Source: Niastella sp. (GTDB taxonomy: Bacteria; Bacteroidota; Bacteroidia; Chitinophagales; Chitinophagaceae). Taken from it: DNA of 64,000 nt. How positions within the stretch are numbered: the stretch's first letter is position 1; every line of letters starts with the position of its first letter. The DNA lies in assembly GCA_017744515.1 (NCBI GenBank), contig JAGIBF010000009.1, forward strand, positions 15,934 through 79,933, read 5' to 3'. The notes under the pieces are model-generated. The model worked only from the letters and a program-made list of their open reading frames with translations. It ran no database searches and had not been told where the DNA came from. The position numbers and the translations under genes were made by a program. Positions 3,854-10,759 of this stretch are shown here, in pieces.

Positions 3854-4411
3854 TTATACCAATTGCAAAGCTTTTGCAAAATCGGCTAAATCCAAGACGG
3901 CCAAATCGATGGTGGGGTTGGGTAGTGGCTGGTTTGGGTGGGTAGTTTTTACAAATACGGTATGCATGCCGGCATTACGGCCAAACTCCATATCGCTGAT
4001 GTTGTTGCCAACGATGAGTGATTTGTGCAGGTCTATTTCGGGGTAATCTTTGGCTGCTTCGAGGGCCATGCCAGGATTGGGCTTGCGGTTGGGATGATCG
4101 TTGGTGAGGGAGGTGCAGTAGTAGATCTTGTCGATGCGGCCGCCGGCAGCTTCGATATCCTGCAGCATACGGGCATGTATCTCATGCAGGTCCGCTTCGG
4201 TCATCAATCCTTTACCGATGCCCCGCTGGTTGGTAGTAATGATGATGCGGCCAAAGCGGTTGGCAAATACGCTCATGGCTTCCGGTACACCGTCATAGAA
4301 TACGAACTCGTCATAGTTGTATACGTAGTCCTGGTATTTCTCGTGATTGATGACGCCATCCCGGTCGAGGAATAATGTCCAGCTATTGTCGATTTGTGTA
4401 AGATCAAGCAT
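3854..4411 (-). CDS. gmhB: D-glycero-D-manno-heptose 1,7-bisphosphate phosphatase (GmhB-type HAD)
   Basis: An HAD-IIIA phosphatase of 185 residues that removes the C7 phosphate of heptose 1,7-bisphosphate. Motif I is LDRDGVINHE (nucleophile and acid/base Asp), motif II is TTNQRGIGKG, and motif III/IV is RKPNPGM followed by IVGNNISDMEFG. The cysteine-rich zinc loop of canonical GmhB appears reduced: CTSLTNDHPNRKP keeps one Cys and one His but lacks the later CxC. This is seen in some HisB/GmhB relatives. It starts 2 bp after the hddC stop, so it is translationally linked to the GDP-heptose cassette, and that context supports the assignment. Confidence 0.87.
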   Translation of the reverse strand: MLDLTQIDNSWTLFLDRDGVINHEKYQDYVYNYDEFVFYDGVPEAMSVFANRFGRIIITTNQRGIGKGLMTEADLHEIHARMLQDIEAAGGRIDKIYYCTSLTNDHPNRKPNPGMALEAAKDYPEIDLHKSLIVGNNISDMEFGRNAGMHTVFVKTTHPNQPLPNPTIDLAVLDLADFAKALQLV

Positions 4412-4413
4412 AA

Positions 4414-5115
4414 TTAAAAACTCATGGTTCCGAACTCCTGATTGGCTTTTGCATAGTCGGCTGGTATGCCAATGTCTATGAAGTAAGCGTCTTGTGCCAG
4501 GCCATACATGTTGCGTTGAGCGTATAGCTTTTCGAGGTAATCTTTTTCAAAGGAGAACTTTTCAGGCAGCGTCTCCTGTAAAAAAGACGCTACGTTCAAT
4601 GCATATACGCCCCCATTGATATAGCCGGATTCGTAATATTGTTTTTCCCGGAAGTCGCTGATCCTGTGATCCTCCATCAGTTCTACCACACCATACCGGT
4701 CAAATTGCTGCATAGGCTTTAGGGAAAGCGTGCAATCAGCTGCGTGGCTGGTGTGAAAGGTGGCTAACTGATCAAGCTGAATGGTGAAGATGGTATCGCC
4801 GTTCAATACCAATACATCTTTCTCCTTGGCTTTACTGCAGGCCAGTTTAATAGCGCCGCCGGTACCCAGTGGTTCCTGCTCGATGGTTGTTTGTATATCG
4901 AGATGCGGGTATTGTTCCTGCAGGAATGCTTCGATCGCTTCATGCATATACCCCAGTGAAAAGATGAATCGTTCTATCCCCTGTTTGTGGAAATAATCGA
5001 TCACGTAAGCAAGGAAAGGTTTACCGGCTACAGGAGCCATACATTTGGGCAGGTCAGGTACAGCGCTACGTAAGCGGGTGCCTAACCCCCCGGCCAGTAT
5101 GATACACTCTTTCAT
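4414..5115 (-). CDS. hddC: D-glycero-D-manno-heptose 1-phosphate guanylyltransferase (HddC-type)
   Basis: A 233-residue nucleotidyltransferase of the sugar-1-phosphate type (GT-A-like Rossmann fold). The N-terminal signature LAGGLGTRLRSAVPDLPKCM binds the nucleotide. VLNGDTIF is the metal-binding Asp motif and YINGGVYAL is the substrate-side motif. Alone it could be any NDP-sugar synthase. Its place between gmhA and gmhB and next to the hddA-like kinase points to GDP activation of D-glycero-alpha-D-manno-heptose 1-phosphate. Its start codon overlaps the gmhA stop (TAATG), typical of coupled translation. Confidence 0.87.
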   Translation of the reverse strand: MKECIILAGGLGTRLRSAVPDLPKCMAPVAGKPFLAYVIDYFHKQGIERFIFSLGYMHEAIEAFLQEQYPHLDIQTTIEQEPLGTGGAIKLACSKAKEKDVLVLNGDTIFTIQLDQLATFHTSHAADCTLSLKPMQQFDRYGVVELMEDHRISDFREKQYYESGYINGGVYALNVASFLQETLPEKFSFEKDYLEKLYAQRNMYGLAQDAYFIDIGIPADYAKANQEFGTMSF

Positions 5116-5693
5116 TATTCTCCGAAGTATTGTTCTTCGACCAGTTCACAAATGATATGGCCAAGCATGATGTGGCTTTCCTGGATACGGGGCGTATTTT
5201 TGGAAGGCACATTGATGAGGTAATCACTGAGCTCTTTCATCTTGCCGCCTGTCTCTCCGGTAAATCCCACAGTAACGATGCCTTTTTCACGGGCCACTTC
5301 AAATGCTTTCATGATGTTGGTAGAGTTGCCGGAAGTGGAAAGACCTACCAGGAAGTCTCCTTTTTTACCAATGCCTTTTATCAGGCGGGCAAAGATCACA
5401 TCATAGCTGTAGTCATTGGCCACGGCTGTCATATAGGATGTGTTACAGTGCAGGGCTTCTGCCGGCAATGCTTCACGGTCTTTATAGAAACGGCCGGAGA
5501 ATTCAGCCGCGAGGTGTTGTGCATCGGCCGCGCTGCCGCCATTGCCACAGAAGTAAATGTGGTTGCCATTTTTCAGAGCAGCTACCATCGCTGCAACCAC
5601 TGCTTCTGTTCTCTTCAGCAGTGCTTCATCCTGCAGAACGCTGGTCTTAACAGCTATGGATTCGCTAACGATCTTTTTTATTCTGTCTTGCAT
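5115..5693 (-). CDS. gmhA: Sedoheptulose 7-phosphate isomerase (GmhA, SIS domain)
   Basis: A 192-residue SIS-domain isomerase converting sedoheptulose 7-phosphate to D-glycero-D-manno-heptose 7-phosphate, the first step of heptose nucleotide synthesis. The start was moved from the track's 5828 to the ATG at 5693 (MQDRIKKIVSESI), since the upstream 45 codons run back into the hddA 3' end and do not look like GmhA. Diagnostic motifs are CGNGGSAADAQHLAAE, LSTSGNS and HIMLGHIICELVE. It ends overlapping hddC by 1 bp. Confidence 0.92.
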   Translation of the reverse strand: MQDRIKKIVSESIAVKTSVLQDEALLKRTEAVVAAMVAALKNGNHIYFCGNGGSAADAQHLAAEFSGRFYKDREALPAEALHCNTSYMTAVANDYSYDVIFARLIKGIGKKGDFLVGLSTSGNSTNIMKAFEVAREKGIVTVGFTGETGGKMKELSDYLINVPSKNTPRIQESHIMLGHIICELVEEQYFGE

Positions 5694-5719
5694 AATATAT
5701 AATGATAAAGGATTTGCTA

Positions 5720-6739
5720 TTAAATGGTCCAGGAGGTCATTCCATGTTGAATGAACTGGTAATGCTTTACGTCTCCTCCAAACCTGGACAAGGTTTCGAT
5801 CACTGCATATTTTGTATTGTCGGGACAATAAAAGGTCATGAATCCCCCGCCTCCGGCGCCTGATATCTTGCCTCCGGTGGCGCCTGCTTTTTTAGCCGAC
5901 TCGTAAATGTCATCGATCAGGATATTGGAAATACCTTCAGCCATTTGTTTCTTCTGGCGGAAACCAAAGTCGAGGATGTCTCCGATCTCATGTACTTTGC
6001 CTTTCAACAAGGCTTCCTTCATCAGCTGTGCCTGGTGTTTGAGCTGGTGCATGGCTTCGATACTCTTCTCTTGTTTGTTCACCACATTCAGGCTCTGCTT
6101 TTCAATGATCTTTGCAGACTCCCGGCTGGTGGAAGTATAGTACAATACCAGGTTGTTTTCCAGTTCAAACAGGTATTGTTGTTTGATGCGTAAAGGGTTT
6201 ACGATCACTTTATCGTCGGCGTAGAATTCCATGTAGTTCACACCGCCGAATGTGCAGGCATATTGGTCCTGCCGGCCACCTGCCATGTTGAGGTCTTTTC
6301 TTTCTATTTCGTAGGCAAGGTGAGCTACGTCGTATTCGCCAAGGGGCAAACGCAGCATTTCGGCAAAAGCGCCAAGAATAGCCACCACAAGGGTAGAGGA
6401 GGTGCCCAGCCCCGATCCTGCCGGCGCATCTACAAAGGTAGACAGCCTGAATCCTGTAAGCGGAAATGCATATTGCTCCTGCAGCCGGTTGTATACTCCC
6501 TTCAGCAGGTCGAGCTTGCCATCGAGCGGCAGACGGTTGGTAAGGTCAAAACGTTGTTCTTCCTGCCTGTCCATCGCTTGCAGGATGATCACGTTTTCGC
6601 TCAGTGGTTCAATATTGGCGTACGCATAGAGTGATATGGTAGCGTTGAGGATGGCCCCGCCATAAAGGTCGCAATAGGGGCTTACATCGGTGCCGCCGCC
6701 AGCTAATCCAATTCTTAAAGGTGCTTTGCTCCTGTACAT
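5720..6739 (-). CDS. hddA: D-glycero-D-manno-heptose 7-phosphate kinase (HddA-type GHMP kinase)
   Basis: A 339-residue GHMP-superfamily kinase. The N-terminal substrate motif is RIGLAGGGTDVSPY, the ATP-binding motif is APAGSGLGTSSTLVVAIL, and the C-terminal motif is GGKISGAGGGGFMTFY. This set matches the HddA family, which phosphorylates C1 (alpha anomer) of heptose 7-phosphate and feeds the GDP-heptose branch rather than the ADP-heptose (HldE) branch used for lipopolysaccharide core. It is the first gene of the four-gene cassette, 26 bp upstream of gmhA. A 54-bp gap separates it from the preceding glycosyltransferase. Confidence 0.9.
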   Translation of the reverse strand: MYRSKAPLRIGLAGGGTDVSPYCDLYGGAILNATISLYAYANIEPLSENVIILQAMDRQEEQRFDLTNRLPLDGKLDLLKGVYNRLQEQYAFPLTGFRLSTFVDAPAGSGLGTSSTLVVAILGAFAEMLRLPLGEYDVAHLAYEIERKDLNMAGGRQDQYACTFGGVNYMEFYADDKVIVNPLRIKQQYLFELENNLVLYYTSTSRESAKIIEKQSLNVVNKQEKSIEAMHQLKHQAQLMKEALLKGKVHEIGDILDFGFRQKKQMAEGISNILIDDIYESAKKAGATGGKISGAGGGGFMTFYCPDNTKYAVIETLSRFGGDVKHYQFIQHGMTSWTI

Positions 6740-8019: not shown

Positions 8020-8964
8020 TTATTCTATTCCTAATTTCTTTTCGATCAGGTAAGCGTTCCGGCTTGGAGCATTCCGGGCGATCAACTCACCCAAAAAGCC
8101 TGCCATGAATAGCTGTGTACCTATTACCATGCTGGTCAATGATATATAGAAAGGGGGGCGGTTGGTAAGGCCTTTCGTCGAGTCGACAATCTTGCCAATG
8201 ACCAATATGGCAATCATGGCAAAACCGATGAGGAAGAAGATTGTCCCTATCAATCCGAAGAAGTGCATGGGCCGTTTACCATATTTACTGACAAACATGA
8301 TGGAGGCGAGGTCGAGGAAACCATTCACGAAACGTTCCCAGCCAAATTTAGTAGTGCCGTATTTGCGTTTGCGGTGCTCGACTACTTTTTCTCCTATTTT
8401 CCGGAAGCCAGCCCATTTGGCCAGTACCGGAATATAGCGGTGCATTTCGCCATATACTTCAATGCTCTTGACCACCTTGCGCCTGTAAGATTTAAGTCCG
8501 CAGTTAAAGTCATGCAGGTGTATTTTGGATATGCGGCGTGTGCTCCAGTTAAAGAAACGGGAAGGTATGTTCTTGGTCAGTGTATTGTCATACCGCTTTT
8601 TCTTCCAACCGCTGATCATATCGTACCCATCTTCCACAATAAGACGGCGGAGTTCTGGTATTTCATCGGGGCTGTCCTGCAGGTCGGCATCCATGGTGAT
8701 CACCACATCGCCCAGCGCAGCTTTGAAGCCTTCATTGAGCGCAGCTGATTTACCATAATTGCGTTGGAAACGGATGCCTTTGACATTAGGATTGCTGGTA
8801 CGCAAAGATTCTATGACATCCCACGACTCATCGGTACTTCCATCATCTATCAATATGACCTCATACGAAAGGTTTTGTTCTTTCACCACCCTGTCTATCC
8901 AGGCGCACAGTTCCGGCAGTGATTCTGCCTCGTTCAATAAGGGTACGACAATGGAGAGATCCAT
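8020..8964 (-). CDS. Membrane-anchored glycosyltransferase family 2 (DPM/ArnC-like)
   Basis: A 314-residue GT2 enzyme with an N-terminal catalytic GT-A domain (IVVPLLNEAESLPEL; LIDDGSTDESW; metal-binding DADLQDSPDEI) and two C-terminal transmembrane helices (about residues 235-257 and 270-297). This is the layout of dolichol- or undecaprenyl-phosphate sugar transferases such as ArnC and GtrB, which make lipid-linked sugars at the cytoplasmic face. The sugar is unknown. The gene starts 1 bp after the stop of the DUF4199 gene, indicating a shared transcript. Confidence 0.9.
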   Translation of the reverse strand: MDLSIVVPLLNEAESLPELCAWIDRVVKEQNLSYEVILIDDGSTDESWDVIESLRTSNPNVKGIRFQRNYGKSAALNEGFKAALGDVVITMDADLQDSPDEIPELRRLIVEDGYDMISGWKKKRYDNTLTKNIPSRFFNWSTRRISKIHLHDFNCGLKSYRRKVVKSIEVYGEMHRYIPVLAKWAGFRKIGEKVVEHRKRKYGTTKFGWERFVNGFLDLASIMFVSKYGKRPMHFFGLIGTIFFLIGFAMIAILVIGKIVDSTKGLTNRPPFYISLTSMVIGTQLFMAGFLGELIARNAPSRNAYLIEKKLGIE

Positions 8965-8965
8965 A

Positions 8966-9481
8966 TTATTGGTTAAAGGAATTTTCGAATGGTGTCTTTT
9001 TCTTGGTTACTGCTGCACCAATCAGGGCTGCGATAGCTCCGGAAATAACGTACCAAAAGAGCAGTATGAATATCATGAACATGGTAAAGTTCTTCTCAAA
9101 CCATTGTATACCTTGTTCTATCTGGTTGGGGTCTGCATTAGGGTTTTTGGCGGCTTCGATCCTGGCCTGTTCAACAAACTTTTCTTTTATTTCGGGGAAT
9201 AAAAAGCCTTGGGCAATGGTATACGCAACCATCAAAACAGTGATAACAGCTACTATTTTAAATCCAAATCCAAAAAGCCCTCCAAAGGTGGCCTGGTATC
9301 CGGTTTCTTTTCCATGGTTGACGACGCCCCAGATGATAGAGCCTCCAAAAATGGCTATGCTAACATATTGGATCCATCTTTCGGTATATAGATTGGCAAA
9401 GTAGATCACCAATGCCAGTACAATCAGTACCAAAGAGGCGAGTAGACCTATTGTAACTGCAGATGTAGTTTTCCTTTCCAT
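8966..9481 (-). CDS. DUF4199 membrane protein
   Basis: A 171-residue inner-membrane protein with four predicted transmembrane helices (about residues 8-28, 38-54, 67-90 and 133-158) and a charged loop between helices 3 and 4 (FPEIKEKFVEQARIEAAKNPNADPNQ). This is the Bacteroidota DUF4199 pattern; members very often sit next to a GT2 glycosyltransferase and dihydroorotase, exactly as here. The molecular function is unknown. It is 12 bp downstream of the dihydroorotase-like gene and 1 bp upstream of the GT2 gene. Confidence 0.85.
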   Translation of the reverse strand: MERKTTSAVTIGLLASLVLIVLALVIYFANLYTERWIQYVSIAIFGGSIIWGVVNHGKETGYQATFGGLFGFGFKIVAVITVLMVAYTIAQGFLFPEIKEKFVEQARIEAAKNPNADPNQIEQGIQWFEKNFTMFMIFILLFWYVISGAIAALIGAAVTKKKTPFENSFNQ

Positions 9482-9493
9482 ATCAGGCTTGTT

Positions 9494-10759
9494 TTATTGG
9501 GTTAAATGTACGCGATCTCCATTAACAATACCCCTTACTGCACCGGTTAATGTTTTACCGATAAAGGCAGAGTTCTTCGACTTCGATTGGAAACGTTTTT
9601 CATCCACTGTAATTGTTCCGGCGGGATCATAAAGCGTGATGGCTGCTTTGGCTCCTTTTTGTATGGAAGCTGCTTCAAGCCCGAATATCTTACGGGGATT
9701 GATGCTGAGTAATTCCACCCACCTGCTTTCCGGAACTTCGGGCATAGCCGTTTTCAGAACTGCATAAGCGGTTTCCAGGCCTATCATGCCATTTTTCGCA
9801 TATTCAAACTCCAATACCTTGCTGTCGAACTCATGTGGCATGTGGTGTGTGGCAATACAATCGATGGTGCCATCGAGCACTGCTTTTTTCAGTGCATTCA
9901 CTTCCGTTGCTGTGCGTAGGGGCGGATACACTTTGAGGTTGGTATCGTATTGCAGCAGATCGGCATCCGTAAAGAACAGGTGGTAGGGAGTTACGGAACA
10001 GGTAACGGCCAGACCGCCTTCTTTAGCTCTCCGGATATAATCGAGCGAACGGGGAGAGGTGACGCCGGTAAAATGCAGTTTGGAGTCGGCATAGCGGGCC
10101 AGTTTGATGTCTCTGGCCACCAGCAGTTCTTCCGCCATCATGGGTTTGCCTGGCAAGCCCAGCTGGGTAGATATGATGCCTTCGTGCACCAGCCCGTTGG
10201 CGCCTACACTTTTATCGTCGGGTATCTGGATGACCACGCCGTCGAATGCTTTTACGTACTGCAGTGCTTTCACCAGCAGCCCGGCGCTCTGGATGGGGTG
10301 GAGGCCATCGCTGAAGGCTATGGCTCCGTTGCTCCGCATATCATACATTTCCGCCAGGTCTTTTCCTTCGGCGCCCCTGGATACAGCTCCGATGGGGTGC
10401 ACATTGACCGGGAGGCTTTTTGATTTTTGCTTGATGTATTCGGTCTGTGACTTGTTGTCTACTACCGGCTTGGTATTGGGTACCACCAGCACGTCGGTAT
10501 ACCCCCCTGCAGCCGCGGCGGCGGCGCCCGTTTCGAGGGTCTCTTTGTATTCGTATCCCGGGTCGGCAAACTGGGCAAAGATATCTACCCAGCCCGGCGA
10601 CAGGGTCAGGCCCTGACCAGCAATTACCTGGTCCGCCTTTGCCTCTATGCGGGGTTGAATGTCTTTAATAATGCCGGACTCAATAAGTATATCCTGCCTG
10701 GTTTCGTGAAAAGGAGAGGATGGATCGTTAATGTAAGCCTGTTGAATGAGCAACACCAT
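9494..10759 (-). CDS. Dihydroorotase-like protein lacking metal ligands (PyrC' type)
   Basis: A 421-residue amidohydrolase-superfamily protein aligning along its whole length with class I dihydroorotase (PGYEYKETLETG, AGGYTDVLVVPNTKP, ATHHMPHEFDSK). The zinc site has decayed by eye alignment: the HxH of strand 1 is DIFAQF (residues 59-64), the HCED histidine region reads IQIPDD, the HICHVS histidine is Gly in HFTGVTS, and the catalytic Asp of ATDHAPH is His. It is therefore probably catalytically inactive, comparable with the structural PyrC' partners of aspartate transcarbamoylase in pseudomonads. The frame is intact, so it is under selection for something. It heads the DUF4199-GT2-heptose gene string. 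Confidence 0.82.
   Translation of the reverse strand: MVLLIQQAYINDPSSPFHETRQDILIESGIIKDIQPRIEAKADQVIAGQGLTLSPGWVDIFAQFADPGYEYKETLETGAAAAAAGGYTDVLVVPNTKPVVDNKSQTEYIKQKSKSLPVNVHPIGAVSRGAEGKDLAEMYDMRSNGAIAFSDGLHPIQSAGLLVKALQYVKAFDGVVIQIPDDKSVGANGLVHEGIISTQLGLPGKPMMAEELLVARDIKLARYADSKLHFTGVTSPRSLDYIRRAKEGGLAVTCSVTPYHLFFTDADLLQYDTNLKVYPPLRTATEVNALKKAVLDGTIDCIATHHMPHEFDSKVLEFEYAKNGMIGLETAYAVLKTAMPEVPESRWVELLSINPRKIFGLEAASIQKGAKAAITLYDPAGTITVDEKRFQSKSKNSAFIGKTLTGAVRGIVNGDRVHLTQ

Follow-up and report, generated by a model that had tools for sequence, protein, structure and literature searches.

The window, by which the whole analysed stretch of 64,000 nucleotides from Niastella sp. is meant, encodes a full-length homologue of type I dihydroorotases (DHO) that has lost its zinc ligands and its catalytic residue and that has most probably (at a probability of about 0.83, judged from the comparison of genes and genomes) been retained to serve PyrB, the catalytic chain of aspartate transcarbamoylase (ATCase), as a structural partner, as does the PyrC' subunit of the class A2 ATCase of Pseudomonas. 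This pseudo-dihydroorotase (pDHO) would bind PyrB physically and take part in the assembly of a dodecamer, its dimers linking PyrB trimers to one another and stabilising them, and PyrB would depend on its presence. The PyrC'-like ATCase scaffold, already considered in a preliminary description of this DNA, is supported by the mutual exclusion of pDHO and PyrI, by its association with one pyrB lineage, by its absence from the corresponding operon in PyrI-bearing genomes and by a parallel case in the family f27.

The open reading frame of pDHO runs from an ATG at 10759 to a stop at 9494 with neither a frameshift nor an internal stop (Table 1), and its product scores 351 bits against the family model TIGR00857 (pyrC_multi, cut-off 279), which places it within the family, and far under the cut-offs of all active-DHO equivalog models. 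The nearest solved relatives by sequence are the Aquifex aeolicus DHO chains 3d6n/4bjh (E ~1e-80). Equally, an AlphaFold monomer model built from the window protein plus 45 relatives, 46 sequences in total (pLDDT 85.8, pTM 0.89), has as its top fold match in the PDB the ATCase-bound Aquifex DHO (3d6n_A) with a TM score of 0.89 at 34% identity, so that the initial assignment as a full-length dihydroorotase homologue with frame and fold intact is borne out. A relationship to the CRMP/dihydropyrimidinase-like pseudoenzymes was considered and rejected, as type I DHOs are far closer in sequence and fold. Two apparent DHO fusions in other genomes (a 748-aa open reading frame in G111 and a 974-aa one in G173) proved to be long open frames without a PyrB part.

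Table 1. Features of the pDHO locus; positions are those of the window
Feature	Positions	Strand	Remarks
pDHO	9494..10759	minus	421 aa; TIM-barrel fold intact, all zinc ligands and the catalytic Asp lost
FAQFA (residues 61-65) replacing the zinc motif HxHxR (H61F, H63Q, R65A)	10565..10579	minus	Alignment to Aquifex DHO
Gly152 replacing the alpha-zinc ligand Asp153	10304..10306	minus	Alignment to Aquifex DHO
Ile179 replacing the beta-site ligand His180	10223..10225	minus	Alignment to Aquifex DHO
Candidate PyrB-contact loop, residues 182-205	10145..10216	minus	Lowest-confidence segment of the model; E193, G194, S197 and G201 conserved
Gly232 replacing the beta-site ligand His232	10064..10066	minus	Alignment to Aquifex DHO
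His305 replacing the catalytic Asp305	9845..9847	minus	Alignment to Aquifex DHO
DUF4199 membrane protein	8966..9481	minus	PF13858; 12 bp downstream of pDHO; judged not functionally tied to it
GT2 polyprenyl-phosphate-type glycosyltransferase	8020..8964	minus	PF00535; 1 bp downstream of the DUF4199 gene
Likely GDP-D-glycero-D-manno-heptose gene set	3854-6739	minus	Beside envelope glycosyltransferases
Open reading frame of 103 aa	11211-11522	minus	Signal-peptide-like start; no Pfam match

Mapped residue by residue and numbered according to the Aquifex aeolicus DHO, for which the ligands have been listed (PMC3880350), pDHO retains none of the six zinc and catalytic positions (H61F, H63Q, D153G, H180I, H232G and D305H), and the substrate residue Arg65 is replaced by Ala, with His309 and Asn95 still present. 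The replacement of ligand and catalytic positions noted in the preliminary description is thus real, while its extent, given there as four of five, was an undercount, since the mapping onto Aquifex leaves no zinc ligand at all. The alignment with type I DHOs, which had been recommended as a check, gives the same result on a broader basis: all 17 active type I homologues keep the six residues complete, as against none of the 95 distinct homologues that come from the class of this genome; 23 of these keep none of the six, 43 one, 15 two and 14 three. Read from these lost residues, pDHO is a 'dead' type I dihydroorotase. The second, intact pyrC that had equally been proposed as a check is present as well. 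The source genome (7.6 Mb, G000), whose near relatives belong to Niastella and Paraflavitalea (Chitinophagaceae), contains besides pDHO a single clear homologue of DHO, which is of the PRK09236 type (G000:C116) and has the motifs HxH, HCED, HILHIS and ATDHAPH intact; catalysis therefore does not need the pDHO gene. PyrB is encoded on a different contig than pDHO (G000:C91), and a search of the genome for PyrI (TIGR00240) gave no match, so that the ATCase is not of class B (PyrB-PyrI).

The distribution of pDHO was assessed in 247 genomes, each at least 90% complete, of one class, which we take from the named relatives and general taxonomy to be Bacteroidia. A homologue is found at E <= 1e-30 in 212 of the 247 genomes, and a more sensitive profile search adds very divergent copies in eight genomes of the family f91 and in G259, raising the total to about 221. 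These genomes had first been counted as lacking pDHO, an assignment that was rejected as their divergent homologues score best with the pDHO profile; for f91 this rests on profile comparison in three of the eight genomes and, in the remaining ones, on profile matches to frames separate from the second DHO. In the DHO tree, which leaves the position of the f91 and G259 copies unsettled, the 48 sampled class members form one clade (SH-aLRT 99). In f91, with genomes of ~2 Mb, PyrB, pDHO and the second DHO all evolve unusually fast (L369, L376, L382, L194-L200). A PRK09236-type DHO occurs in most of the class (235/247 genomes); the family f25 (G110) of the same class has no PRK09236 match and possesses an intact type I DHO directly adjoining pyrB. 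Outside the class, homologues are intact and in several families located directly after pyrB, with the exception of f27. In this family of another class of the same phylum (four genomes, G041, G046, G050 and G055; loci L160, L178, L182 and L183), which is placed separately in the DHO tree, the gene immediately downstream of pyrB encodes a DHO that has lost HxH, Asp153, His180, His232 and Asp305 (at most His61 is kept) and that, as its sequence reads, is a separate loss independent of the Bacteroidia clade. No pDHO-type gene was found in the viral contigs searched.

The presence of pDHO follows the type of PyrB. PyrI occurs in 12 of the 247 class genomes, none of which carries pDHO, as compared to about 221 of the 235 others (Fisher p about 1e-13, phylogeny ignored). 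In PyrB sequences taken from about 100 genomes the trees of PyrB and DHO correspond, the PyrB of pDHO genomes branching beside the PyrB of genomes in which it is linked to an active DHO, as expected if PyrB and a DHO-type subunit had been passed on together. Foreign or divergent PyrB proteins come without pDHO, as in G314, in f98 and in f20, whose Bacillus-type PyrB is placed outside the native clade by an AU test (p 1.5e-8); for the PyrI-type PyrB and for that of f98, a sister position to the native clade was not rejected by such tests. Among the 14 genomes that have neither PyrI nor pDHO, five are without PyrB (G204, G256, G268, G301 and G327), one has a Bacillus-type PyrB (G051), three f98 genomes have a divergent PyrB, G314 has a PyrI-like or divergent PyrB and G411, a MAG of a PyrI-bearing family, shows a weak PyrB match only. 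The remaining three (G430, G436 and G438) possess a native-type PyrB. In G430 the missing pDHO is probably an assembly gap, because the BatA-like gene, the neighbour of pDHO in that family, ends at a contig edge; G436 is without both neighbours. The MAG G362 (L100, C66), in which no PyrI was found, encodes a second, PyrI-type PyrB alongside a native-scoring PyrB and pDHO, and may be contaminated. One genome from outside the class, G234, carries an intact type I DHO together with PyrI and as many as three PyrB-like genes (L174, L202, L169 and L062).

Some observations count against a PyrB partner. In two genomes, G436 and G438, PyrB is of the native type and no pDHO was found; in three others (G251, G359 and G401) pDHO is present and PyrB was not found; and the Bacillus-type PyrB demonstrates that an ATCase can work alone. 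A mirror-tree comparison is not discriminating, with a partial correlation of 0.36 for pDHO and PyrB versus 0.47 with the second DHO. A location beside pyrB is typical of the Pseudomonas PyrC' gene, although not strictly defining, and pyrB stands next to pDHO neither in the window nor in 25 class loci inspected with ~3-5 kb flanks. An elaboration of the partner role, in which the vacated pocket or the placement in an envelope operon couples pyrimidine synthesis to the building of the envelope and pDHO would be a class-specific regulatory subunit replacing PyrI, seems unlikely to us.

Still somewhat less likely is a function of pDHO in the envelope itself, shared with DUF4199 and GT2 and, across most of the class, with a membrane protein encoded upstream that has a BatA N-terminal domain. 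This protein, of ~640-720 aa (for example L154:6321-8246), is encoded with near-zero or overlapping spacing upstream of pDHO in most Bacteroidia, and the tight class-wide pairing speaks for an envelope role. The BatA-like gene lies directly upstream in about 30 families, among them f21 (14/14), f72 (7/7) and f86 (3/3), in most f19 and in a few f1 genomes, while the DUF4199 and GT2 genes follow directly downstream in the order of the window and in f24. The arrangement BatA-pDHO-DUF4199-GT2 is seen complete in G102 and G224; the window genome has pDHO-DUF4199-GT2, and in it, in other Chitinophagaceae and in G042 pDHO occurs without BatA, no BatA-like match being found in the window genome. The description of DUF4199 and GT2 as constant neighbours consequently holds for the order of the window and some others and fails elsewhere, as both are absent beside pDHO in most other families (0/14 in f21 and 0/7 in f72). 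Against an envelope role stands a double dissociation, since pDHO persists without BatA or without DUF4199 and GT2, and the BatA-DUF4199-GT2 set persists without pDHO: in f107, represented by three PyrI genomes, pDHO is gone from between BatA and DUF4199 and the GT2 orthologue is kept, and in the f25 genome G110, where the active DHO is located beside pyrB, BatA, DUF4199 and the start of GT2 are found together with no DHO in between. Moreover, it is the PyrB type that the presence of pDHO tracks. The envelope role hinted at previously is accordingly disfavoured, and the chance sharing of an operon, offered as its alternative, comes close, as pDHO appears to have been inserted early in the class into a pre-existing envelope operon. 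Elsewhere in the window the likely heptose gene set comprises an HddA-like kinase, a GmhA-like isomerase, an HddC-like guanosyltransferase and a GmhB-like phosphatase, named from best matches under the equivalog cut-offs. The short open reading frame of 103 aa (Table 1) is flanked by pDHO and a gene for acid phosphatase B.

Conservation within the protein bears on the readings that retain an enzyme. Fourteen columns that are invariant in the active family are lost in the pDHO clade, all six ligand and catalytic positions, Arg65, Asn95 and His309 among them, and 29 other such columns stay at least 90% conserved. An enzyme that works in the former DHO pocket without metal or after re-tooling could explain the strong purifying selection throughout the class and the presence of Asp305 or His305 in 75 of the 95 class homologues. 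Yet the former ligand positions vary widely across lineages, with F, Q, S, H, N, R or G at position 61 and G, T, N, S, A, H or P at position 232, without a common new constellation, and the new near-invariant residues E137, D140, M141 and Y223 fall outside of them. The former active-site columns are conserved below average (1.76 vs 2.51 bits), so that no new catalytic centre is visible there, and we consider a re-tooled enzyme very improbable. A working dihydroorotase, the ligands of which another alignment would restore, is more improbable still: the score above the TIGR00857 cut-off speaks for it, for which reason annotation pipelines would name pDHO a dihydroorotase, but the motifs align gap-free around the lost residues, the six positions separate active from class homologues entirely and an intact DHO is encoded elsewhere. 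A decaying pseudogene on its way to loss, to which the fast evolution (mean distance 0.92 vs 0.26 for PyrB) might point, is hardly credible for an open, full-length gene that forms one clade, occurs in about 221 of 247 genomes and keeps the conserved columns mentioned above.

How a PyrB partner might have arisen can be outlined from present-day gene orders. The phylum may ancestrally have possessed a pyrB-pyrC pair (class A1). Once a PRK09236-type DHO had taken over catalysis in Bacteroidia, the former PyrC would have been deprived of its active site, relocated to the BatA-DUF4199-GT2 operon and retained for the sake of PyrB; it would later have disappeared wherever another PyrB took the place of the old one or PyrBI was acquired. 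BatA would have been lost in the family of the window. The contact with PyrB may involve the loop of residues 182-205, one of three low-confidence stretches of the model (the others being 272-275 and 313-321), which overlaps the Aquifex loop after Cys181 that becomes ordered on ATCase binding. The low-confidence loops are slightly more conserved than the remainder (2.75 vs 2.49 bits), a difference that is not significant, with 70 of 421 circular shifts as high.

If PyrB is indeed the partner, nearly every Bacteroidia species outside the PyrI families has two genes that would be named 'dihydroorotase', one of which encodes a dead ATCase subunit, and metabolic models and gene-essentiality data would need to be reread. 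Equally, a subunit type known from Pseudomonas would then span an entire class, with f27 adding a second loss in parallel, and pDHO would illustrate clearly how a pseudoenzyme is retained just as long as its partner enzyme is present. The pyrB-linked dead DHO of f27 offers the easier system for studying a complex of PyrB and pseudo-DHO. No published account of a Bacteroidota pseudo-DHO was found in the literature searched, most subscription papers being outside its reach. As far as this literature shows, the kind of subunit is already known from Pseudomonas, and its wide occurrence in Bacteroidia, away from pyrB and with natural deletion in PyrI genomes, is apparently undescribed.

Pseudomonas PyrC' is one of the known systems nearest to pDHO. 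Both are full-length type I DHO homologues of ~45 kDa without zinc ligands, encoded in genomes with a separate active DHO and PyrB and without PyrI. The PyrB of P. aeruginosa requires the dead subunit in order to assemble as an active trimer in the dodecamer (PMC7053772). The complex has been shown for Pseudomonas only, and the Bacteroidia gene is placed not beside pyrB but in the BatA/DUF4199/GT2 operon. The DHO-ATCase reactor of Aquifex (class A1; 3d6n, 4bjh, PMC3880350) provides the closest solved structure and a homologous PyrB partner. In it two ATCase trimers are held by three DHO dimers (PMC7053772) and three DHO loops are ordered only on ATCase binding (PMC3880350); unlike pDHO, which has none of the ligands, the Aquifex DHO still binds zinc and works as an enzyme in its complex with ATCase. 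In fungal CAD-like proteins such as Ura2 and that of Chaetomium, a dead DHO domain is attached to ATCase (PMC7053772); CPSase, ATCase and this domain there share a single polypeptide, whereas pDHO has a gene of its own. The f27 pseudo-DHO, likewise a dead type I DHO, differs in its location directly downstream of pyrB and in its position outside the Bacteroidia clade.
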